Positions 4,009 to 21,564 of a DNA stretch of 31,593 nucleotides are shown here, piece by piece; positions within the stretch are counted from its first letter, which is position 1; every line of letters begins with the position of its first letter. Origin of the DNA: a virus. The DNA lies in the IMG/VR virus record IMGVR_UViG_3300036770_003300, positions 1-31,593 of that record, one strand, 5' to 3'. The notes under the pieces are model-generated. The model worked only from the letters and a program-made list of their open reading frames with translations, was not told the DNA's origin and made no database searches. Made by a program: the position numbers and the translations under genes.

Positions 4009-4227
4009 TTAGGCTCCGTAGTATACTGCGCGTTTTGCTTGCTTCAACGATTCTTCGAACTTGCGCATATTCTCTTCCTCTTCCTTGAGGGCGGTTGAGA
4101 GATGAAACTCAAACTTGCTACCTAAAGAATTCTTGGAACCAAAAACCACAATTGATTCTGCCAGGGTCTTGATCTGAGCATCATCCAATTCTAAAAAGTC
4201 GCCAACTAAATCTACCATCGTACGCAT
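4009..4227 (-). CDS. small helical protein, 72 aa
   Basis: Residues about 45-70 form a charged amphipathic helix (LKEEEENMRKFEESLKQAKR) likely to be a coiled coil; the first part contains an acidic helix (VGDFLELDDAQIKTLAESI). The start ATG overlaps the stop of the 4227-4535 gene (TAATG); a second in-frame ATG lies three codons later. Function unknown. Confidence 0.77.
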   Translation of the reverse strand: MRTMVDLVGDFLELDDAQIKTLAESIVVFGSKNSLGSKFEFHLSTALKEEEENMRKFEESLKQAKRAVYYGA

Positions 4228-4535
4228 TATGCTACCTCTTTCATATTAATCTTTACGAAACCGATATTATCAACTACGTGAGTCACACCCGTTTCTAAAT
4301 TCTCAAGAATGTCACCTACTGATACTGAGCGCATATCTCCGACAACTTCGATCTTATTCTTAGCCCATATATTACCGATGGTGAATGCTTGCTCTAAGTC
4401 GCTTGCTTCGATGAGTCCTACTAACTCATACTCATCAGAAATCGCCTCAATCTCGAGGGGATTCATAAAATACATATCTCGGATCTTAGGATTGTCCTCA
4501 GGGATTTGGTAAACTGCAAATTTGCTTTTGCTCAT
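4227..4535 (-). CDS. hypothetical protein, 102 aa (or 110 aa from a leaderless start)
   Basis: The start at 4535 (MSKSKFAVYQIPED) is preferred because AAAGGAAAAGAA lies just upstream. An in-frame ATG at 4559 would add eight residues (MDNRKGKE) and coincides with the predicted transcription start of the promoter at 4566-4594. The body has an N-terminal strand-rich region, an acidic helix with DLEQAFTIGNIWAK, and a C-terminal part GVTHVVDNIGFVKINMK. It resembles a small alpha/beta domain; no family is recognised. It is first in the operon 4535-3492. Confidence 0.78.
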   Translation of the reverse strand: MSKSKFAVYQIPEDNPKIRDMYFMNPLEIEAISDEYELVGLIEASDLEQAFTIGNIWAKNKIEVVGDMRSVSVGDILENLETGVTHVVDNIGFVKINMKEVA

Positions 4536-4565
4536 TTCTTTTCCTTTTCTGTTGTCCATGTTCTT

Positions 4566-4873: not shown

Positions 4874-5105
4874 TCATATGGTCCGCTACTTTTGAGTATT
4901 TGTCTAGATAGTTTTTCTTGTATTCTAATTTACTAGATTCTACTAGATCGGAATAATCCCCTGGTTCAGTTAATTTCTTAATTACTGGATGTAAAATCTT
5001 TTGCGTAATGCGATGAGCCATCTCCTTAGCAACCATGCTAGGATCATATCCGTTCCTTACTTTCTGTAGTGCTCGTTCTAATTCAAATTCTTCAACTGTC
5101 TTCAT
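4860..5105 (-). CDS. helical hypothetical protein, 81 aa
   Basis: An almost entirely helical, charged protein (EEFELERALQKVRNGYD, then MAHRITQKILHPVIKKL, and a Lys/Asp-rich end NEED). There is no membrane segment or metal site. It overlaps both neighbours by 14 bases, as in the chained gene string from 6402 to 4655. No recognised family. Confidence 0.75.
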   Translation of the reverse strand: MKTVEEFELERALQKVRNGYDPSMVAKEMAHRITQKILHPVIKKLTEPGDYSDLVESSKLEYKKNYLDKYSKVADHMNEED

Positions 5106-5364
5106 CGACTGTCAGTACAATGCCCCCTTCAAGCCGCTGAATTCTTTTTACTTTACCGATCGGCAATTGTGTACCAATCGCAATGTACGGACCACCCGAC
5201 GGATCCATCATACCAAGGTCATTATAGTCAATCCCATGTTGCAGCTCGTGTCCTCCGTAGCGGCAATACTTCAATGAAGTGCCGGTCATGTGAAACAGGT
5301 ATCTGCCCGGACTAATATTCTGAAACCAGTATTCATCACCATACCGATTTTTATACTTTTCCAT
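5092..5364 (-). CDS. beta-rich hypothetical protein, 90 aa
   Basis: A Gly- and Tyr-rich beta protein (YGDEYWFQNISPGRYLFHMTG, then GHELQHGIDYND, then IAIGTQLPIGKVKRI). The composition suggests a small beta barrel or sandwich. AAGGTGAAAGATT precedes the ATG, and the gene overlaps its upstream neighbour by 14 bases. No family recognised. Confidence 0.77.
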   Translation of the reverse strand: MEKYKNRYGDEYWFQNISPGRYLFHMTGTSLKYCRYGGHELQHGIDYNDLGMMDPSGGPYIAIGTQLPIGKVKRIQRLEGGIVLTVDEDS

Positions 5365-5674: not shown

Positions 5675-5862
5675 TCCCTGCCCCTCGTAACAAACCATGT
5701 GCTAAATTCGCTTGGACTCATGTAGTGTGCAAGGACAACCTCTAGTCCATTCAGCAACTCTTCTTCATAGTCATGTTCAAGAGTCCATTTATATGTTTCT
5801 CTAAGACTTTTAGCAACAATTTCACTATGGTCTTCTGGCGATATATCAATTGTGTATTTCAT
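5671..5862 (-). CDS. small helical protein, 63 aa
   Basis: The start at 5862 (MKYTIDISPEDHSEIV) is supported by AAGGAAGAGAA and an ATGA overlap with the upstream stop; an in-frame upstream ATG at 5904 has less support. A strand is followed by two helices (SEIVAKSLRETYKWTLEH and ELLNGLEVVLAHYMS). The fold may be a helical hairpin. Similar short proteins accompany the neighbouring genes in other phages, without known role. Confidence 0.75.
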   Translation of the reverse strand: MKYTIDISPEDHSEIVAKSLRETYKWTLEHDYEEELLNGLEVVLAHYMSPSEFSTWFVTRGRE

Positions 5863-6086
5863 TTCTCTTCCTTCAACAATTTTTCTAGTGCTTTCATATG
5901 ACATTTTAATTGTTTACTGAATTTTCTCTCACCCTTAGCATGCTTTACTGCCAACTTAAAGAACCGTTCCAATTCTTTATCATAGTCACAGGACCAATCA
6001 ATCGTGGCACCTTTTGGTTTCCATTCTTCATTTTCCCAAAATATAAAGCCTGCCTCTTTTGCTAATTCTTTCGCAATCTTTTTCAT
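5859..6086 (-). CDS. basic helical hypothetical protein, 75 aa
   Basis: A lysine-rich helical protein (IAKELAKEAGFIFWE, then KELERFFKLAVKHAKGE, then KCHMKALEKLLKEEK). The 4-base ATGA overlaps at both ends place it firmly in the operon. No motif identifies a function. Confidence 0.75.
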   Translation of the reverse strand: MKKIAKELAKEAGFIFWENEEWKPKGATIDWSCDYDKELERFFKLAVKHAKGERKFSKQLKCHMKALEKLLKEEK

Positions 6087-6402: not shown

Positions 6403-6941
6403 TCTTCGTCTTTACTCCACATTCCAGTTTTGTTTCGATAATCGGCAGCATCTTCACCATAATTCTCATCGGCATGCTCATCACACAGGGTCCGATGCCA
6501 CGCCATATAATAAGTCTGTCCGGGCTTACCACACTCTTCGCATGTGCGTCCGCTCATCAATTCAGCAAAGTCTATGTAATTATACTGTGCATCGGTTGCT
6601 CTGTCAACATAGAACCTTAATGTGCCAAATTTTTCTTTTACTTGTACGGCAACAGGACAAGATGTTTCATCAAATTTCTTTTGTGCTTCATCAATGTCTT
6701 CCTGTGTACCTACACGACCTTTCCACATTTCTTTACCAAGATTTTCAGTCCAATACTCCAATCTTTCCTTTGCACTACGGTGAGACATTGTGAGAGCGCA
6801 GGAAAGAGTATCAATGATCTGATACCAACCATCTCCACAATCAAAACCCCAACACATGAGAGTTTCTTTCATGTCACCAAATCTGTTTGCATACAGTTCT
6901 GGATATGTTTCTACAAGTTTTTTATCAAGTTCTTCTCTCAT
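6399..6941 (-). CDS. conserved phage protein with a C-terminal zinc-finger-like site, 180 aa
   Basis: Residues 19-45 carry the stretch NRFGDMKETLMCWGFDCGDGWYQII, and residues about 104-113 carry VKEKFGTLRFYV, both hallmark segments of a protein common in phages and prophages of Proteobacteria. The C-terminal part has CEECGKPG and, about 20 residues later, CDEH, giving a likely Cys3-His or Cys4-like zinc site. The family is uncharacterised; this assignment is from memory of the motif. It overlaps its neighbours by ATGA and GTGA, so it is part of the long small-gene operon. Confidence 0.85.
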   Translation of the reverse strand: MREELDKKLVETYPELYANRFGDMKETLMCWGFDCGDGWYQIIDTLSCALTMSHRSAKERLEYWTENLGKEMWKGRVGTQEDIDEAQKKFDETSCPVAVQVKEKFGTLRFYVDRATDAQYNYIDFAELMSGRTCEECGKPGQTYYMAWHRTLCDEHADENYGEDAADYRNKTGMWSKDEE

Positions 6942-7153
6942 TCTTCAACTCCGAAATGTTCTTTAATCCTTTCACCAACAATACTCTTACCAGTCACATT
7001 TGATTGGTCAGCAATACCGACACATTCCTGCACAATCAACTCGGCGAACTTTTCTTTCAATCGATCCAGTTGATTGGCGTTAAGTGTGGTCCAAGTTTCT
7101 GGGACAGCTTCATCCAGCGCCTGACCAAAAAGTATGTCTATTCGTTCGTTCAT
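6938..7153 (-). CDS. MNERI/LIVREC family member, 71 aa
   Basis: Starts MNERIDILFGQALDE, has KFAELIVQECVGIA in the middle and ends IKEHFGVEE. These three segments recur in seven other genes between 6.9 and 10.6 kb, with variable filler between them. The family is common as tandem paralogs in environmental phages, with no known function. Helical prediction and a conserved Glu-Cys pair suggest a protein-interaction or metal/thiol site. The 4-base overlaps on both sides show coupled translation. Confidence 0.83.
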   Translation of the reverse strand: MNERIDILFGQALDEAVPETWTTLNANQLDRLKEKFAELIVQECVGIADQSNVTGKSIVGERIKEHFGVEE

Positions 7154-7338
7154 TCTTTAACTCCGAAATGTCTAAGGATACATTCACTGGGTTCATGGTC
7201 TTCTCTGAGAGCGACAGCAGCACATTCCCGCACAATCAACTCGGCAAATTTTTCTTTATCAAAATATGAACCATCAATCTGAGGATGTCCTTGACATATC
7301 GTTGATTCTGCAATAAACTTTTCTATGAGTTGGTTCAT
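7150..7338 (-). CDS. MNERI/LIVREC family member with diverged start, 62 aa
   Basis: The start MNQLIEKFIAEST is a diverged form of the family start; the core KEKFAELIVRECAAVA and end ILRHFGVKE are conserved. It is the shortest member. ATGA overlaps occur at both ends. The DNA at the start of each copy (GAATGAACGAACG-like) and at the end (CATTTCGGAGTT-like) is also conserved, showing recent duplication. Confidence 0.82.
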   Translation of the reverse strand: MNQLIEKFIAESTICQGHPQIDGSYFDKEKFAELIVRECAAVALREDHEPSECILRHFGVKE

Positions 7339-7718
7339 TCTTCAACCCCAAAATGTTTCTTAATTGCTTTGGAACAATCGTGCGTTCCTCTTGACCATTC
7401 TGAACTCATCTTATGATCCAAAAGTAAATCACAATGATTGGCACACTCTCGCACAATCAACCCAGCCCATTCGCCCTTTGGTGGTTCGGTGTAGAGTGGC
7501 GTCATGCCTTCTACAGGTTGTCCATACACAGTTCCGTAATTAATTGTTTTAAGGTCGTGGATAAGGTCATTCATGTTGTAAACCCAACATAAAGGCTCCG
7601 GTTCAGGCTGGCTCAAGCGTTCGCGCAAGACTTTGATTAGAATGTCTCGGTTTGGGTCATAGTCGTCCAGTACATCAAATTTATCCAACGCCATCTGCAT
7701 TGTTTCACGGTCTGTCAT
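7335..7718 (-). CDS. composite protein: phage N-domain fused to a LIVREC/HFGVEE tail, 127 aa
   Basis: The start at 7718 (MTDRETMQMALDKFDVL) is preferred: AAGGAGAAG is upstream and ATGA overlaps the previous stop. Residues 1-80 match a widespread phage region (helix R-E-T-M-Q-M-A-L-D, then L-R-E-R-L-S-Q-P-E-P-E-P, then W-x-Y). A PPKGEWAGL linker leads into LIVRECANHCD and ends AIKKHFGVEE, so the C-terminal third is the array module. It is a visible example of domain shuffling within the cluster. Function unknown. Confidence 0.82.
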   Translation of the reverse strand: MTDRETMQMALDKFDVLDDYDPNRDILIKVLRERLSQPEPEPLCWVYNMNDLIHDLKTINYGTVYGQPVEGMTPLYTEPPKGEWAGLIVRECANHCDLLLDHKMSSEWSRGTHDCSKAIKKHFGVEE

Positions 7719-8056
7719 GTGCTCTTCTCCTTCAGTTTGGCTTCTGCCCATCTCGCCCCAAGGATAAAAGCTCTTTCGTTGTCGGGTTTAACTTCTGCGT
7801 AATCCTCAATATTTAACCCAACCCATTCGCGCTTTGGTGGGCTTGTATTAAACTTCAACTCAGCCCGAAGCCGCTGGTTTTCATGAATCAAAGCCCACCA
7901 ATCCAGCCTATTTACCAAAGGCTCTTGCTTCTCTGCCTCTGCGATGGCTTGGCGTAGTGCAGTGATGGCTTCGCTTGCAGGGGTTGGCTGATAATCTTCC
8001 GCACTTCGGTAATACTCTAAAGCCTCCAATGCTTGCTTCATTGCTGAGATGCTCAT
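7715..8056 (-). CDS. phage protein sharing the PPKREW linker, 113 aa
   Basis: The N-terminus MKQALEALEYYRSAEDY and ITALRQAIAEAEKQEP resemble the frequently repeated phage segment M-K-Q-A-L-E-A-L-E then A-L-R-Q-A-I-A-E-A-E-x-Q-E-P. A coiled-coil-like WALIHENQRLRAELKF follows, then SPPKREWVGLNIED, which parallels PPKGEWAGLIVREC in the next gene. The end is helical (AFILGARWAEAKLKEK). The role is unknown; it appears to be assembled from the same module pool. Confidence 0.8.
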   Translation of the reverse strand: MSISAMKQALEALEYYRSAEDYQPTPASEAITALRQAIAEAEKQEPLVNRLDWWALIHENQRLRAELKFNTSPPKREWVGLNIEDYAEVKPDNERAFILGARWAEAKLKEKST

Positions 8057-8295
8057 GATTTAGACCCCTTTACTTTAACCACTTCATACCGTGGTTGATG
8101 CGCCCCAACAGGCCGAATGAATCGTGGATACTCGCCGTACTTGTAGTAATCCAGTGGGGTATGTTCCCAAATGTTGTATGGGTTTAGTGGCTCAATTACA
8201 GGTCTCTTTTCGTAATGAAACGCACTATGTCTTTTTCTAAATTCATCTTCCAGTATTCCGGAAAGACCGGATAACACGCTTTTGCGTTCGCTCAT
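8053..8295 (-). CDS. small hypothetical protein, 80 aa
   Basis: The start at 8295 (MSERKSVLSGLSGIL) follows AAGGGGAGAAACAAA and overlaps the previous stop as ATGA; the frame is open twelve codons further upstream. The protein is basic and rich in Pro/Tyr (PLNPYNIWEHTPLDYYKYGEY, then GAHQPRYEVVKVKG). No recognised domain. It occurs inside the MNERI array, so it may be a cassette gene. Confidence 0.78.
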   Translation of the reverse strand: MSERKSVLSGLSGILEDEFRKRHSAFHYEKRPVIEPLNPYNIWEHTPLDYYKYGEYPRFIRPVGAHQPRYEVVKVKGSKS

Positions 8296-8537
8296 TTTGT
8301 TTCTCCCCTTGCTCGGATTGCTTGAGCGCACCCATGGTTTCTTTCGTGCATCCCGTTAGTTGCCATGCCTAATTCTTCACACACCTTCGCACACGCCTCA
8401 CGCTCCTGCTGCGCTACTAATTCGGCGAACTCAATCAGTTCAGCATGGTCAACTTCATAAACTTCTTTTTCTGCATTCCAAAAATACACATTCGCAATAG
8501 CTTGTTTAGCAAGTTCTCGTATCCGTTCATTCATCAT
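8292..8537 (-). CDS. MNERI family member with ARGETK end, 81 aa
   Basis: Starts MMNERIRELAKQAIANV, has AELVAQQEREACAKVCEE in the middle and ends AIRARGETK. This is the second C-terminal type in the array (ARGEK rather than HFGVEE). AAGGAG stands 3 bases before the first ATG and 6 before the second (8534), so either may be used. It is the first gene after the perfect promoter at 8565-8593. Confidence 0.83.
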   Translation of the reverse strand: MMNERIRELAKQAIANVYFWNAEKEVYEVDHAELIEFAELVAQQEREACAKVCEELGMATNGMHERNHGCAQAIRARGETK

Positions 8538-8564
8538 CTGCTCCTTTTTCTTAACCTATAACTA

Positions 8565-8593
8565 ATTATATAAGAAAACGGAAATAATGTCAA
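8565..8593 (-). promoter_or_regulatory. consensus sigma70 promoter TTGACA-17-TATAAT
   Basis: Both hexamers are perfect (-35 at 8588-8593, -10 at 8565-8570) with a 17-base spacer, in an 85-base gap between genes. The mRNA would have a leader of about 20 bases with AAGGAG, so this one is not leaderless. It feeds the operon 8537 to about 4655. Confidence 0.92.
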
Positions 8594-8622
8594 GCACTTT
8601 TTTCTTCAATAAAATCAATAAG

Positions 8623-9117
8623 TTACTTCAAAACCTCATTCGGATACTTCTCAGTAGGTACGAAAACCATCTCTCGCTTTGGTGTATAAGGAAAAGTAAT
8701 TGGTGTAAAACAATCGCTATTAGAGTAAAAGTCCTTTGTCATTGCACCAAATTCTTCCGTTTCATGCCAAGACCAGAACACTTTGCCATCAATATCGTAT
8801 GCTTGTCCACCAAATCTATCAGCCTGTTTGAATACATGAGAACATCGAATATTCTGAAAGACACCAGGAGATGCCTCATTCCATTCCCAATCTTCACCAG
8901 TCAACGGGACAAGTGGTTCAAACATCGCCAATTTACTAAACATATTAACAGTATACGGTGCCGTTGTTCCTGTATGCCCTTCATCGATAAACACATCAAG
9001 CATCTTCAGTATATTCTTACAAATTGCTTCTTGCATTTCATCACAATAGTTTCCGTTTTCGTCAATGAAACCTGCGGCACGGAATTCTGACATAGCATGA
9101 AAATGTAGATTACTCAT
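8623..9117 (-). CDS. conserved phage protein of unknown function, 164 aa
   Basis: Segments EFRAAGFIDENGNYCDEMQ, then SKLAMFEPLVPLTGEDWEW, then FQNIRCSHVF and AYDIDGKVFW are characteristic of a conserved protein present in very many phages and prophages (family recognised from memory; function not known). It is probably cytoplasmic, with Cys and His residues but no clear catalytic motif. It starts with an ATGA overlap with the 38-aa peptide gene; AAGGA lies 9 bases upstream. It is the last gene before the promoter at 8565-8593. Confidence 0.87.
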   Translation of the reverse strand: MSNLHFHAMSEFRAAGFIDENGNYCDEMQEAICKNILKMLDVFIDEGHTGTTAPYTVNMFSKLAMFEPLVPLTGEDWEWNEASPGVFQNIRCSHVFKQADRFGGQAYDIDGKVFWSWHETEEFGAMTKDFYSNSDCFTPITFPYTPKREMVFVPTEKYPNEVLK

Positions 9118-9230
9118 TGGATTAGTCCTTCAATTCTATCTGCTGCCATTAACAATAACATCTTCAATGCGATGTTGTCCTGTGATTCACTTGCCGTTCT
9201 TAGTGTATCAATAAGTTCTTGATGCGTCAT
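9114..9230 (-). CDS. 38-aa helical peptide
   Basis: ATG at 9230, 38 codons, TGA at 9114-9116, with ATGA overlaps at both ends. The peptide is two amphipathic helices (QELIDTLRTASESQDN and ALKMLLLMAADRIEGL). The exact stop-start packing on both sides is the main evidence for a real gene. Function unknown. Confidence 0.66.
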   Translation of the reverse strand: MTHQELIDTLRTASESQDNIALKMLLLMAADRIEGLIQ

Positions 9231-9490
9231 TTCTCACCCCTTGCTAAGATTGAGTCGGCGCATTCGTGAAATTCGTTGTTCTCACCCCAAGCCCCTAGTC
9301 GTGTCCATTTGTTCGCCAGCTTTATGCACTCCATCGCACACGCCTCACGCTCGTCTGCCCTAATCAAATTAGCAAATAATTTAAGTCGGTTGTAAATAGA
9401 AATGCCATCAACATATACATCAACATCAAACTTACCCTCGTGTATTTCAAACCCCGCCTGTTCAGCAAGTTCTCGTATCCGTTCGTTCAT
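9227..9490 (-). CDS. MNERI family member with ARGEK end, 87 aa
   Basis: Starts MNERIRELAEQAGFEIHEG, has KLFANLIRADEREACAMEC in the centre and ends ADSILARGEK. It contains a strand-rich insert (FDVDVYVDGISIY) not seen in other members. The last residues overlap the 38-aa gene by ATGA. Its type matches 8292-8537. Function unknown. Confidence 0.84.
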   Translation of the reverse strand: MNERIRELAEQAGFEIHEGKFDVDVYVDGISIYNRLKLFANLIRADEREACAMECIKLANKWTRLGAWGENNEFHECADSILARGEK

Positions 9491-9684
9491 TCTTCAACTC
9501 CGAAATGTTCTTTGATTGTATTCTCAACTTCTCTAACTCCGTAGAGATTTGCTTGCTCTTTTTCTTTACAGATTCCTAAACATTCCTTAACAATCAACTC
9601 GGCGAATTTTTCTTTATCAAAGAAATAATAGCCAACTTCTTTGGTTTCAGCCTGTTCAGCAAGTTCTTTGATTCGTTCGTTCAA
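9487..9684 (-). CDS. MNERI/LIVREC family member, 65 aa
   Basis: Starts MNERIKELAEQAETKEVGYY, has KEKFAELIVKECLGIC and ends IKEHFGVEE. It is the most typical short form of the array and is joined to its neighbours by 4-base overlaps. An invariant Glu-Cys in the core and a further Cys follow. Confidence 0.84.
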   Translation of the reverse strand: MNERIKELAEQAETKEVGYYFFDKEKFAELIVKECLGICKEKEQANLYGVREVENTIKEHFGVEE

Positions 9685-10037
9685 TTATATTCTCCTTCTT
9701 CATTCTTCTTTGCTGGTTTGCGTCTTATCATCCTGCTCAACTTATATGTCCATTCAGTATAGAAATGACGGACACCAATCGTAATTCTAAGATAAGGTAG
9801 GACTGCACCAACATAGATTTCACTTAGGTCTATGCCACAATCAAGACTAAACGATACATGTTCCATAGTCCAGATATGAAAGATCAGCCAGTGCAATGAA
9901 TAAGCATCGGCATTTAATTCATCGCCTGGTCTAAAATTGTATCGAGGCACAAGAGGACAATAATCATTACACCAAATTTTATGGTATGGATAATGTTCCC
10001 ACCAATCTTTGTCTCTATATGCTTGTGGTTCGCTCAT
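9681..10037 (-). CDS. aromatic hypothetical protein, 118 aa
   Basis: The start at 10037 (MSEPQAYRDKDWWEHY) overlaps the stop of a 29-aa membrane peptide as ATGA; a start five codons upstream is also open. It is rich in Trp, Tyr and His (HWLIFHIWTMEHVSF, then VLPYLRITIGVRHFYTEW) and ends in a basic tail. A short moderately hydrophobic region near 50-70 may be buried rather than membrane-spanning. No family is recognised with confidence. Confidence 0.78.
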   Translation of the reverse strand: MSEPQAYRDKDWWEHYPYHKIWCNDYCPLVPRYNFRPGDELNADAYSLHWLIFHIWTMEHVSFSLDCGIDLSEIYVGAVLPYLRITIGVRHFYTEWTYKLSRMIRRKPAKKNEEGEYN

Positions 10038-10123
10038 CGTCTTTTCTTCCATAGTTCTTCATATACAATAATACAGATTCCTGGTATGAGACCAACAAGC
10101 AATCCCATCAGAAAGGTGGTCAT
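10034..10123 (-). CDS. 29-aa single-span membrane peptide
   Basis: ATG at 10123, 29 codons, TGA at 10034-10036, with ATGA overlaps with both neighbours. The peptide is a single hydrophobic helix (FLMGLLVGLIPGICIIVY) followed by a Lys/Arg-rich end (KKRR). Packing and composition argue for a true membrane peptide. Function unknown. Confidence 0.6.
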   Translation of the reverse strand: MTTFLMGLLVGLIPGICIIVYEELWKKRR

Positions 10124-10374
10124 TCTTTGATTCCAAAATGTTGTTTCAATTCTCGTATAATCTTCTTAGCCTGGTCACCATCAGGAATATAAGGATTCTT
10201 GCCAACGTTTGTGGATATACTGATACATTCCCGAACAATCAACTCGGCGAATCGTTCATAATCTTCTAATCTTGGATACTTAAAAGTACCATCGTTTATG
10301 TTGGATTCATTTGTGATCCAGTTATAATATTTTAATCCAGACTGTTCAGCAAGTTCTTTGATTCGCTCGTTCAT
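10120..10374 (-). CDS. MNERI/LIVREC family member, 84 aa
   Basis: Starts MNERIKELAEQSGLKYYNW, has ERFAELIVRECISIS and ends LKQHFGIKE. The filler between the start and core is longer than in most members (about 30 residues, Asn/Tyr-rich). It overlaps both neighbours by 4 bases. Function unknown. Confidence 0.84.
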   Translation of the reverse strand: MNERIKELAEQSGLKYYNWITNESNINDGTFKYPRLEDYERFAELIVRECISISTNVGKNPYIPDGDQAKKIIRELKQHFGIKE

Positions 10375-10604
10375 GATTCAACTCCGAAATGTTGTTTAAT
10401 GCCTTTGGATAAATCCTCACGCCAGAGACTATCAAAATCTCTCTGATAGTCTTCGTTAAAGTATCTCACACACTCACGCACAATTAAATTAGCCAATACA
10501 ACTTTTGATCTATTTTGAATTTCTTCTTCAGTAGCACCAGATGCCATGAGACCTGCGGCACACAAATCAGCCATTTGAATGAGTTCTTTAATTCGTTCGT
10601 TCAT
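10371..10604 (-). CDS. MNERI/LIVREC family member, 77 aa
   Basis: Starts MNERIKELIQMADLCAAGL, has LANLIVRECVRYF and ends IKQHFGVES. It is the first copy of the array in transcription order. Its start lies inside the 3' end of the 54-aa gene (17-base overlap in another frame), an arrangement that probably couples the two. Confidence 0.84.
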   Translation of the reverse strand: MNERIKELIQMADLCAAGLMASGATEEEIQNRSKVVLANLIVRECVRYFNEDYQRDFDSLWREDLSKGIKQHFGVES

Positions 10605-16115: not shown

Positions 16116-18200
16116 TTAAATTGGATATCTGAAGATTACCGTACCAGATCCCCCAGTGTAAGCCCACGATCCGCCACCCCCGGTATTGGCCACACCTGCA
16201 GAGTTAGGACCACCGCCCCCACCTAAACCTCCAGTACCAGAACCCCCAGACCTGCGTTTCCCACCGCCTCCGCCAGCATAATATACAGTTGATCCGGTTA
16301 CCCATTCTTTACCGTCCCCTCCATTACCCGGTAGTACCGAAGTAGCATCACCCCCAGCTTCTCCGGCACCGCCGCCACCGCCACCTAGATAATTATTTGG
16401 AGATGAATGTCCATCTCCCCCAGGATTGCCATATCCTCCCCATAAGGATGTAGGTTGTGTTGCAAGCGCACCGGTAATAACCACGGAACCATGAGTACTT
16501 CCTCCACCCGATCCACCGGGTTGTGCCGTCGCTCCTGTGGCTTCACCGGCTCCTCCACCGCCACCCAAACCTTTCGCAATATATCCAGTATTGTAGAAAT
16601 ATGAATCGCCGCCAGGCGAACCATTTGCACCTGCGCCAGCGCCTCCGGATGTTGCACCTCCACCGCCAATAACAACTGAATATGATTCACCCGTTGATGC
16701 TATTATTTCCCCAGAAAGCCAGCCACCACCGCCCCCACCTCCACCCTGAAAAGAACCTGCACCGCCGCCGCCGCCCCCACCTACGACAAGGTATTCTATG
16801 GGAGAAGCTGAAGCACTTGTTACCTCAAAAGTGCCTGCAGTATTAAACTGATGGTATTGATATCCTCCAGATATTGAGGTCGTTCCTCCAGTTGCAGTTA
16901 CACCGGTACCGAGTGTTTTTAATGTATGCCATATATTTGAATAGTAAACTTCTACAGCATTTGTTTCTGAATTAATTCTTAAGGACCCTGGTGTACTGGG
17001 TCTTTCCTCGGTCGTGCCTACTTCTAGAGAAGTGATGTCTGGGGATCTCTCAGTAAAAGAGGATCCTTTATACTGATACTTGATAATAACTATACCTGAT
17101 CCTCCAGACCCACCCGTCTTATGATCCGGATTGGCCGAACCTGACGAAGAACCGCCCCCGCCCCCTCCGCTATTTGTTGTGCCGTTAAATCCATTTTGAG
17201 AAAATGCTCCTCCATTTCCCCCACCGCCAATTCCTCCGGTGCCTGCAGTTACACCACCGCCGCCTGCACCGCCGCCCGCATAGAATGTATTGTTTCCGGT
17301 AATTGCAGATATTCTACCTGTTCCGCCAGATCCCCCAGTGCCGCCACTCCCTGCAATACCAGCTTCGCCGGCACCTCCACCTCCGCCTGCGCCGGTGCCG
17401 GTTCCATTAGAATATCCTACACTATTGCCCCCAGGATTACCTTGTCCCGGAGTTCCCGTACCTGCCGTGACACCCGCAGGGCCTCCCGTGCCTCCACCGC
17501 CGCCAGAAGCACCGGGTTCCGCGGGTTGCGCCGAATAAGAACCACCATGTCCTCCACCCGCGGCAGTTATACTAAATGCGCTGGAAGAAGTGCCATTCGT
17601 TACGCCTACACTATCTAAAGTATATCCACCCGTTCCTCCTGCGCCAACAACTATAGAATATGTAGTTAACGCGACGGGTGCGGTTCCGGTTAGGAATCCT
17701 CCGGCGCCGCCACCTCCACCTCGAGTTTGCGAATATCCTGAGCCGCCTCCTCCACCGCCGCCTCCAACTATTAAGTATTCTACTGTTGCAGAATCCGGAG
17801 CAGATGAAACTATAAAATCTGCGGAACTTTCAAACACATGAATCTTATAATTGCCGAGGGTAATTATTTCATCCCCGCCAGATGCAGATATTCCGCCAGT
17901 AATATTACCAATCGTTATCCACGTATTAGAATAATATAATTCTAGTATGTTATCCTGATTATTTACTCTCAGGCCACCTTCAACATTAGATCTATTTGCA
18001 GTATTACCTACGGGCAATCCTAATACCCCGGTAGATGTCGCCGCCTGATCATAAGAAGTACCGCCCCCACCGCCACCTGTTGCGGCATTTGCTTGACCGA
18101 TTGCTAATAAATTAGAACTAACCGTAGCAAGCTTTTGTACCTGCACAAGGTTGGCAGCTACCGAATCCGCAATATTTGAAAGTGTTATTTTTGTCGTCAT
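16116..18200 (-). CDS. large glycine-rich tail fibre, 694 aa
   Basis: The N-terminus (MTTKITLSNIADSVAANLVQV) is followed by two copies of a module: RSNVEGGLRVNN / RPSTPGSLRIN, a YYSN-W segment, a strand leading to VEYLIVGGGGGGGGSG or IEYLVVGGGGGGGAGS, long Gly-rich tracts and an end GSGIVIIKYQYKG or GSGTVIFRYPI. The glycine tracts resemble the polyglycine II sandwich structures of some phage adhesins. It probably binds the host surface, because such glycine-rich tips determine receptor range. The repeats at 16.1-18.2 kb make the gene prone to recombination. Start at 18200 overlaps the preceding stop. Confidence 0.88.
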   Translation of the reverse strand: MTTKITLSNIADSVAANLVQVQKLATVSSNLLAIGQANAATGGGGGGTSYDQAATSTGVLGLPVGNTANRSNVEGGLRVNNQDNILELYYSNTWITIGNITGGISASGGDEIITLGNYKIHVFESSADFIVSSAPDSATVEYLIVGGGGGGGGSGYSQTRGGGGGAGGFLTGTAPVALTTYSIVVGAGGTGGYTLDSVGVTNGTSSSAFSITAAGGGHGGSYSAQPAEPGASGGGGGTGGPAGVTAGTGTPGQGNPGGNSVGYSNGTGTGAGGGGGAGEAGIAGSGGTGGSGGTGRISAITGNNTFYAGGGAGGGGVTAGTGGIGGGGNGGAFSQNGFNGTTNSGGGGGGSSSGSANPDHKTGGSGGSGIVIIKYQYKGSSFTERSPDITSLEVGTTEERPSTPGSLRINSETNAVEVYYSNIWHTLKTLGTGVTATGGTTSISGGYQYHQFNTAGTFEVTSASASPIEYLVVGGGGGGGAGSFQGGGGGGGGWLSGEIIASTGESYSVVIGGGGATSGGAGAGANGSPGGDSYFYNTGYIAKGLGGGGGAGEATGATAQPGGSGGGSTHGSVVITGALATQPTSLWGGYGNPGGDGHSSPNNYLGGGGGGAGEAGGDATSVLPGNGGDGKEWVTGSTVYYAGGGGGKRRSGGSGTGGLGGGGGPNSAGVANTGGGGSWAYTGGSGTVIFRYPI

Positions 18201-19480: not shown

Positions 19481-21175
19481 TTAATTTACGTAGTTATTAG
19501 CAAGATCAATGACATATAAAGTGTCAAAATTCCCGACAGCTATTATTATGTTTCCATAGTGTTGGTAATTTACTTCATATATACTGGTTTCAAAATCACT
19601 AAAATTATAAAAACTATCTGATCTGTACCTAGTTATATCCCAAGGATTTTCTTGATTAGTGATATAAAAAGATCGTATAGTTTCATTTGATTTATCTACA
19701 GTATAAAATCTACCACCTTCATCGTTGATAAAAAACGAAATAACATCAGATCCAGATACGCCTGCAGGCAATGAAACATTGGAACTCTCTTGCATACTGG
19801 ATAACTCAAAAGCATTTGATAGATACATTTGTTGTATAACATAACCTCTACCGCCACTCTGAAAATCATTCAATACGATAAAAATTCTGTACCCGTCTGG
19901 GGTTATATATGCTGGACCATAAAAATCCATACTTCCTAAATTTAACCCAGTACCGCTAAAAGTTACAGAATAATCAGATATGACATTAGAAAAATCATAT
20001 GGATTTTCAAGGACAAACTCTATACATCGTGTGGAGGGTAAAGTTGAAAATCCGTAGGCCTTAGTTCCATCATCATTAAAATACAATGTTCGTATTCCGG
20101 CAGAAGTATTACTGGTGAAATTCGATACTGTATATGTATTCGTTAAAGTAAATTCAGAAAAAACCCAGGCATTTGGAGTAACATATTTAGTTATGAAATT
20201 TCCAAACATTCTAAACAACATGGTACCGTCTCTACTAACACATACACCATATGTTGTGTCACTAGTATTAGTTGTAAATGTATAAGTCCTATTTACAAAA
20301 TGAAATAAATTTCCTTCCCCCAACTTTACAGTCATTATATCGCCACCAGATTGACTAATATACATATACTTATTATTCGTAGGAATACTTAAACCTGTTG
20401 GGCTAACAATAGTATCATAATCTACAGAATGTCCGGTAAAGATAGCTGTAGAAATATCCCAAGCAGTTGTCAAGAAAAATTCAAAGATATCATCTTTTTC
20501 GCTACCATATACATAGAATTTAGTACCATCACTATTAAATGCACACGCATCTGGAGAAGTTTCCCCAAATAATGTACTTACATTTAGAGATACACTATCA
20601 TATGTAGCAGTGCTAATATCGAAGGTTGTACCTAGAGAAAATTGATAAATTGTGTCTGAGCTATCACCAACAAAATATAACTTTGATCCATCATTACTCA
20701 CCAATATATGCACTCCGCCGGAGTCATATCCCGAAACATTAAATGATTTACTATCGTAGGAAATAGTAGATAAGTCCCAAGGAGTGCCTAAAGTATATTG
20801 ATGTATAATTTCGCTAGTAGACATTGCATATAGTTTTGTTCCATTTGGACTTATATACAAAGCTCTACCGGAGCCGCCCAGTTCGGTCAAGGTTGTATTT
20901 ACGGAATTATAACTGATACTATTCATATCAAAGGGGGTAGATAAATCAAACTCATATACTACCTCAGAATCATTAATAGTATAGAATTTAGTACCATCGG
21001 TACTCATAACAATAGCTTGTATAGAACCCGGAGATCCTGGAAGATTCACTTTACCGAGAGGACTAGGATAATAAAGCAACAATCTTTGTATCATGTCATA
21101 ATATGTTCTCAACGGAGGGTCTGCTGGGAAAAACTTAGTTCCTCCCTTAATTGTTATTCCTGGGGTAATAATCAT
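19481..21175 (-). CDS. beta-propeller repeat virion protein, 564 aa
   Basis: Blades of roughly 40-55 residues repeat the pattern x-D-G-T-K-x-Y-x-x-x-x-x-x-x-I-x-x-F-x-L-x-T-P-W-D-I-S-T: for example STDGTKFYTINDSEVVYEF (near 58), SPNGTKLYAMSTSE (near 109) and SNDGSKLYFVGDSSDTIYQF (near 155). About eight repeats can be seen, more weakly toward the end (NDDGTKAYGF, NDEGGRFYTV). This is the familiar propeller type found in virion and tail-associated proteins of aquatic phages. It lies upstream of the glycine-rich fibres, so receptor or tail-fibre function is likely. The start overlaps the GIY-YIG gene (ATGA). Confidence 0.85.
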   Translation of the reverse strand: MIITPGITIKGGTKFFPADPPLRTYYDMIQRLLLYYPSPLGKVNLPGSPGSIQAIVMSTDGTKFYTINDSEVVYEFDLSTPFDMNSISYNSVNTTLTELGGSGRALYISPNGTKLYAMSTSEIIHQYTLGTPWDLSTISYDSKSFNVSGYDSGGVHILVSNDGSKLYFVGDSSDTIYQFSLGTTFDISTATYDSVSLNVSTLFGETSPDACAFNSDGTKFYVYGSEKDDIFEFFLTTAWDISTAIFTGHSVDYDTIVSPTGLSIPTNNKYMYISQSGGDIMTVKLGEGNLFHFVNRTYTFTTNTSDTTYGVCVSRDGTMLFRMFGNFITKYVTPNAWVFSEFTLTNTYTVSNFTSNTSAGIRTLYFNDDGTKAYGFSTLPSTRCIEFVLENPYDFSNVISDYSVTFSGTGLNLGSMDFYGPAYITPDGYRIFIVLNDFQSGGRGYVIQQMYLSNAFELSSMQESSNVSLPAGVSGSDVISFFINDEGGRFYTVDKSNETIRSFYITNQENPWDITRYRSDSFYNFSDFETSIYEVNYQHYGNIIIAVGNFDTLYVIDLANNYVN

Positions 21176-21564
21176 ATCTTTATATGAGTCCTGTGTATTC
21201 TACATTGAATCGTACCATTGTAATAATCCTCCGATTCTAATACTCGCCTATCCATTTGTTCCCTTGCCTCGAGATAATTACAACTGCCCTTGTTTATACA
21301 TAAGTGTAGTATTTCTCTAATGAAATTATCTTCACCTAATTCTAATACATCCTTCTTTACATCTTCAGATGAGGACCAATATTCTTTCCAATCAGATTCG
21401 ACTTTTAGTCGTTTCTTTTTACCCTTTATGGTCCTTATCTTCCTGAACCAAAATAACTTTTTACCTATGTATTTCCTGCCCGTTACTTTATTCGTAATCA
21501 GATAAACAAAACCATAAATTTCTTCTGGAACTTCTTCTAAGGGGTTTCCTTTGTATAACCACAT
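21172..21564 (-). CDS. GIY-YIG endonuclease-like protein of T4-like phages, 130 aa
   Basis: Residues 17-26 carry YGFVYLITNK and residues 31-36 KYIGKK, the GIY and YIG elements; RKIRTIKGKKKRLK supplies basic residues, and a Glu in NYLEAREQ (near 99) fits the catalytic acid. The rest, SDWKEYWSSSEDVKKDV and then NFIREILHLC, SEDYYNG, matches a compact family often found in T4-like aquatic phages. Substrate unknown. The start is not helped by a good Shine-Dalgarno (AGGATCGGTATTTATT). Confidence 0.86.
   Translation of the reverse strand: MWLYKGNPLEEVPEEIYGFVYLITNKVTGRKYIGKKLFWFRKIRTIKGKKKRLKVESDWKEYWSSSEDVKKDVLELGEDNFIREILHLCINKGSCNYLEAREQMDRRVLESEDYYNGTIQCRIHRTHIKI

Follow-up and report, generated by a model that had tools for sequence, protein, structure and literature searches.

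Half-Gene Exchange at Constant DNA Blocks in a Family of Small Proteins from Uncultured Phages

Introduction

Repeated short DNA in the mobile regulatory cassettes of T4-type phages has been proposed to favour the swapping of small genes within hyperplastic regions. Those cassettes are described as intergenic regulatory elements that move whole genes, whereas the gene family described here has its joints in coding sequence and exchanges half genes. Eight members of this family lie in an IMG/VR virus record of 31.6 kb (IMGVR_UViG_3300036770_003300, positions 1 to 31,593), the whole of which is called the window below, and each protein, about 75 amino acids (aa) long, is laid out as N block, N-filler, core, C-filler and C block. 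The best explanation of our results overall, which we regard as probable, is a scaffold family with two exchangeable segments that recombines at three DNA-constant blocks.

Mosaicism of phage proteins is known from near-identical fragments in otherwise unrelated proteins, which reflect recent recombination and occur in distant genomes (Smug et al. 2023, PMC10684548). Similarly, two proteins of the present family may have a homologous fragment in common while the remainder, constant blocks aside, is unrelated, and recent cases of at least 90% identity also occur among the fillers. However, the mosaic proteins of that study were larger ones of known function (tail fibres, endolysins, polymerases), whereas ours are single-scaffold proteins of about 75 aa and of unknown function that have two nearly freely associating slots, many gene copies in each genome and joints whose codons are fixed. 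Boundary sequences, which are short conserved DNA at the junctions of phage modules, have been proposed as homologous recombination sites (PMC3029335). The family likewise has short conserved DNA at its module junctions, but its core block is intragenic, codes for a scaffold helix and is common to hundreds of members.

Shufflons and integrons also exchange coding segments behind a constant part via conserved DNA sites. Both depend on a site-specific recombinase and operate inside a single replicon, whereas the exchange found here is between phages; the inverted segments typical of shufflons were not found, the members being on one strand in 152 of the 153 loci that have at least two. A diversity-generating retroelement makes fixed-length substitutions from a template, in contrast to fillers that are unrelated and of varied length. 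A limited search of the open literature found no precedent for a family of small proteins with two slots, near-free association and intragenic, codon-fixed joints.

Results

The constant blocks read MNERIKELAEQA (N), FAELIVREC (core) and IKEHFGVEE (C), and the fillers between them measured 21.1 ± 4.9 aa (N) and 22.8 ± 7.1 aa (C). A preliminary description of the window had claimed an eight-member array of MNERI/LIVREC genes, and all eight were confirmed, with the N block (MNERI...) and the core in common. The pattern is not due to chance, as a profile grown from the window members first recovered 319 members from 83 loci and finally 727 from 186 loci, so that the family comprises at least 727 members with 575 distinct filler combinations. 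At least 497 relatives were confirmed in the relative scan, the true family size being larger; a chimeric query, with its N half and C half taken from two different window proteins, served only as search bait for both fillers. All 28 viral records, which were picked for having members, carried 2-24 of them. Based on 562 members, Chao1 estimated about 920 N types and about 870 C types, and sampling is therefore far from complete. With a median net charge of -5, members of the family are moderately acidic. As for the Glu-Cys pair that had been called invariant, the Cys is so in the window members and ends the core in 520 of 562 members family-wide, while the adjacent Glu is not, since two window members read EREAC.

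The association of the two fillers was analysed in pairs among 562 distinct members with both fillers of at least 8 aa. Exact repeat combinations were collapsed beforehand, and a filler was considered shared at a normalised similarity of at least 0.6. The N-filler was shared in 417 pairs, and the C-fillers were unrelated in 403 of them; the C-filler was shared in 376 pairs, with unrelated N-fillers in 348. Both fillers were shared in 9 pairs against 1 expected under independence, and all 9 came from phages with at least 1 kb of common DNA overall. A similarity of at least 0.9 was reached by 138 N pairs and 192 C pairs, with some fillers 100% identical in DNA. The commonest N type was found in 13 loci and paired there with 13 C types; the commonest C type, likewise from 13 loci, was paired with 12 N types. 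At least one half swap was found for 403 of the 562 members. As a control, the other small genes of these loci were also divided into halves: of the pairs that matched in one half, 60% and 53% matched in the other half as well, compared with 7% and 8% in the family. Thus, N- and C-fillers are discrete, long-lived cassettes that recur across phages in nearly free combination. Pairs with a shared filler had a synonymous divergence (dS) of about 1 and a nonsynonymous to synonymous ratio (dN/dS) of 0.11, so the fillers are old and selected as proteins. Rather than fast-mutating binders, the fillers are conserved cassettes, and re-association contributes more to diversity than point change does.

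Tandem duplication and divergence within each phage, with a mosaic look from uneven conservation, would fit tandem genes on one strand that often overlap, as well as the one-to-one orthologs kept between near-identical phages. However, fillers were shared within a locus about as often as chance predicts (7 of 498 and 2 of 418 cases, same-locus pairs being 0.75% of all), which indicates that arrays are drawn from a common pool rather than from recent local duplication. Moreover, fillers up to 100% identical in DNA stand beside unrelated ones across the core block, and a segment that is the same in one pair but shows no relation in another is beyond what uneven conservation can produce. We regard duplication as very improbable. 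The same counts indicate that the exchange occurs mainly between phages rather than within an array.

Individual crossovers were found as well. Gene 5001-5207 of locus L006 consists of the N half of window gene 7150-7338 and the C half of window gene 9487-9684, near-identical on both sides, and the join falls within AAAGAAAAATTCGCCGAGTTGATTGT in the core. L006 is the nearest phage to the window (1.5 kb of common DNA at 85%); none near enough for a gene-by-gene comparison of the array was found, and a large window protein used as bait found no close relatives of the window phage. Loci L076 and L023 have homologous flanks on both sides and the same C half but different N halves, which is a half-gene replacement in place, and L032 and L058 present the reverse case, in which upstream DNA and N half are in common and the C half is different. 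In averages taken over 111 and 137 pairs, the 27-bp core block is where similarity declines to background. No similar flank was present on either side in 744 of 751 swap pairs, and the longest common DNA stretch between their loci measured 135 bp at the median, roughly half the length of a gene; the movement of the fillers is therefore not tied to the genome around them. Recombination at the blocks is visible in its products, and the exchange points are three short blocks: the gene start, the core, and the gene end joined to the next start. Together with the swap pairs and the block codons described below, these crossovers strongly support the module shuffling by recombination between repeated DNA that had been proposed.

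Since the data are all metagenome contigs and the blocks are repeats of 27-50 bp, short-read assemblers might have joined different genes at the repeated core. But among swap pairs with shared fillers of equal length, 657 of 726 differ by more than 5% in the DNA of that filler, 92 filler combinations were found in at least two different contigs, and in 16 swap pairs both combinations were so replicated. Misassembly therefore cannot explain the swaps, and we give it the lowest probability among the alternatives.

Comparison of relatives gave one-to-one orthology only between near-identical phages. At 98% identity or more nearly all members were kept one to one; L114 and L116 (98%) differ by one member exchanged for a different one. 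At about 93% arrays were largely replaced: L106 and L058 have no intact member in common, although an N half is common in one and a C half in another.

The blocks use one set of codons. Compared with usage in the same loci, block codons reached 88% for CGA (14% expected), 69% for CTT (18%), 79% for GCC (20%), 83% for GAG (27%), 82% for TTG (24%), 49% for CGG (7%), 93% for GGA (22%) and 93% for GTT (36%). This fixation was present in loci of low, middle and high guanine-cytosine content alike, and members without a common filler used different codons for 33% of the core residues that they had in common, where codon usage predicts 63%. One codon set maintained against phage codon usage means that the blocks are conserved as DNA. 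The loci were gathered by back-translated peptide patterns rather than by fixed DNA words, so the fixation is not a product of ascertainment; homogenisation by recombination or selection for the DNA itself would each be sufficient to produce it.

The end/start block lies at the junction between genes and the core block is intragenic. In another explanation, the constant DNA would be retained because it serves translation or regulation (Shine-Dalgarno sequence, start coupling, operator), and shuffling would be a by-product. The end block carries GGAG seven bases ahead of an overlapping ATG, and overlapping starts suit this explanation. The core, on the other hand, lies mid-gene with no such role in sight and keeps rare codons, CGG among them, and its 14-mer GCCGAGTTGATTGT had 339 occurrences inside or beside members and a single one elsewhere. 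We consider it improbable that translation or regulation accounts for the constant DNA. As a separate observation, the end word TTCGGAGTTGAAGAATGA (FGVEE and stop) terminates about ten open reading frames (ORFs) that do not match the family profile, including L040:4052, L057:5377, L087:8460, L110:7549, L118:8648 and L126:8553, as though these other genes had acquired the end block.

Blocks conserved as DNA and crossovers inside them would also be expected of a dedicated enzyme that uses the blocks as recognition sites, either a site-specific recombinase, as in integrons and shufflons, or the reverse transcriptase of a retroelement. No tyrosine recombinase (PF00589), serine resolvase (PF00239) or reverse transcriptase (PF00078) was found in the 28 records, many of which are fragments, and a host enzyme is possible. 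The single-strand arrangement also speaks against such an enzyme, the excess similarity declines over the whole core and not at a single base, and the fillers, unrelated and differing in length, are unlike retroelement variants. A dedicated enzyme therefore seems unlikely. General phage or host recombination at 27-50 bp of homology would be the simplest view.

The AlphaFold model of member 9487-9684, made with a 76-sequence alignment (mean predicted local distance difference test [pLDDT] 90), has a helix at residues 3-11, an N-filler hairpin, a helix at 24-44 that contains the core with its Cys, and a helix at 50-61. A second model, of member 10120-10374 with unrelated fillers (pLDDT 85), has the same three helices, the N-filler being a low-confidence loop. 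Because the helices agree despite unrelated fillers, the constant blocks are predicted to form a three-helix scaffold with fillers placed between the helices.

The family is not represented in Pfam, PHROGs or NCBIfam, where searches with single members found nothing and scans of 76 members gave only single weak matches and no family common to two members. Foldseek gave no PDB match below E 3, the best fold match in the PDB, a ribosomal chain (VIA Z 5.5), was taken as chance, and the best structural neighbours in BFVD were uncharacterised proteins of uncultured Caudovirales. With main-type members, tblastn against INPHARED phages and PLSDB returned nothing significant, and an EREAC-type member gave two partial matches (8e-4 and 5e-3); the family is therefore nearly lacking from named phages and plasmids. 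Genomes of GTDB contributed two matching contigs, both from metagenome bins and perhaps viral.

In the window, the eight members are all on the minus strand between 10604 and 6938 with few other genes interspersed. Adjacent genes abut or overlap via ATGA, and junction and core DNA are repeated. The run begins with 10371-10604, which ends in HFGVES, followed by 10120-10374 (HFGIKE end) and by 9487-9684, which starts with TTG. Two members, 9227-9490 and 8292-8534, have an EREAC core and end in ARGE and ARG, respectively. Thus the two C-terminal modules reported earlier were borne out, the HFGVEE type in six members and the ARGE type in these two. The next member, 7335-7718 (ORF opening at 7751), is a hybrid with a second-family-like front up to PPKGEW and then the first-family core, C-filler and end; its C type is the one present in 13 loci with 12 N types. 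Its neighbour 7715-8056 (minus strand), with the order MKQALEAL / AIAEAEKQEP / PPKREWVGL / EAKLKEK, belongs to a second modular family. The PPK-x-EW linker that had been noticed in both is indeed there, with 92% DNA identity over 26 nt. Member 7150-7338, whose N half recurs in the L006 recombinant, has a C-filler type that is found again at L006:7255, and the last member, 6938-7153, carries the commonest N-filler type (AVPETWTTL...).

The core DNA block of member 9487-9684, the crossover zone, occupies 9586-9608 on the minus strand, and further copies lie at 7028-7050, 7228-7250, 7449-7471, 8409-8431 and 10231-10253. The end/start junction at 9482-9516 (minus strand) combines HFGVEE codons, the embedded GGAG Shine-Dalgarno sequence, the ATGA overlap and the next gene start; further copies are at 6933, 7145, 7330 and 10366. 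Outside the run, 5859-6086 (minus strand) is a small ORF and a degenerate relative, with a family N-filler (GFIFWENEEWKP..., 74% over 27 aa to L184) and without the usual core or end block. Within the array, 8623-9117 (minus strand) is not a family member but encodes Tad3, a type I Thoeris inhibitor (PF25185, E 6e-31).

Two further families look like the first in their modular make-up. The second, to which window gene 7715-8056 belongs, has four constant blocks (MKQALEAL / QAIAEAEKQEPVAW / PPKREWVGLTDEE / EAKLKEKN), variable swapped fillers and similarly fixed codons, as judged from small numbers (11-24 sequences). Among the 80 loci found with it (L189-L268), the first family was also present in only 2. 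The third (MTRDDIIRMAREAG / FAxLVAAxEREACAKVC / AIRARG) was found at L139:10179-10413, L190:5204-5441, L210, L217, L220 and L249, and, despite its different constant blocks, has some N- and C-fillers in common with the first: L139 and L066 have an N-filler with 96% identity, and L190 carries the C-filler of window member 8292-8534 on the other scaffold.

The leftmost 13 kb of the window is a dense run of tiny genes, almost all unannotated. The record also encodes both subunits of ribonucleotide reductase, primase, a 2OG-Fe(II) oxygenase, Thy1, dCMP deaminase, a GIY-YIG endonuclease and an endolysin. The endonuclease at 21172-21564 (minus strand) is SegE-like (PF19835, E 8e-38) and possibly a homing endonuclease. 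A YodL-like match at 4227-4559 (minus strand) is weak (PF14191, E 5e-4, under the curated cut-off). The large ORF at 16116-18200 (minus strand), function unassigned, matches PHROG 2295 (unknown function, E 4e-92), and that at 19481-21175 (minus strand), also unassigned, has no convincing match.

Discussion

If the family is a scaffold with two exchangeable segments, co-infecting phages would recombine inside the blocks by ordinary short-homology recombination, either annealing or strand exchange. Exchange at the end/start block would swap whole genes and exchange at the core block half genes, and as the blocks double as scaffold code, every recombinant product would be able to fold. Several points weigh against this reading. 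Of the 28 records, many of them fragments, only 6 had a RecA/UvsX-type protein, and RecT and Erf models had no match in any. The embedded Shine-Dalgarno sequence and start overlap partly explain the end block, though not the core. All sequences of the family are metagenomic, and the function of the family is judged from genomic context only.

From that context, a host-directed role of the proteins is likely. Tad3 was present in 8 of 42 records, namely the window and 7 other array-bearing records, and its distance to a member was about 3 kb or less in the window and in records G004, G014, G020, G021 and G022; these counts come without a chance expectation. We tentatively suggest that each array may be a non-redundant host-directed repertoire, most likely of counter-defence or takeover binders, beside a Thoeris inhibitor. 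The same shuffling might serve another role, with the proteins as subunits of mixed oligomers or as regulators of phage or host proteins. Constant surfaces common to all members would suit mixed assembly, whereas Tad3 in the window array and near members elsewhere points, by its position, to counter-defence; we see such another role as possible but rather doubtful.

Taking host-directed repertoires together with free re-association, it is conceivable, though short of probable, that phage populations hold a combinatorial repertoire in which hundreds of old, selected half-gene cassettes form a common pool for many phages, scaffold-coding DNA within the genes provides the joints, and counter-defence specificities arise by recombination rather than mutation, with at least two further scaffold families alike and some fillers crossing between scaffolds.

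Phages thus seem to have a mix-and-match protein library in common, perhaps host-directed. This would show that small "hypothetical" phage genes can evolve as a common library, with recombination joints within coding sequence, and full-length clustering, which breaks such genes up, is a possible reason why family databases miss them. The family also offers a set of discrete testable modules and, through the linkage of two fillers 27 bp apart, a measure of recombination between uncultured phages. If the proteins are counter-defence factors, the exchange would be a route to new phage specificities without waiting for mutation.

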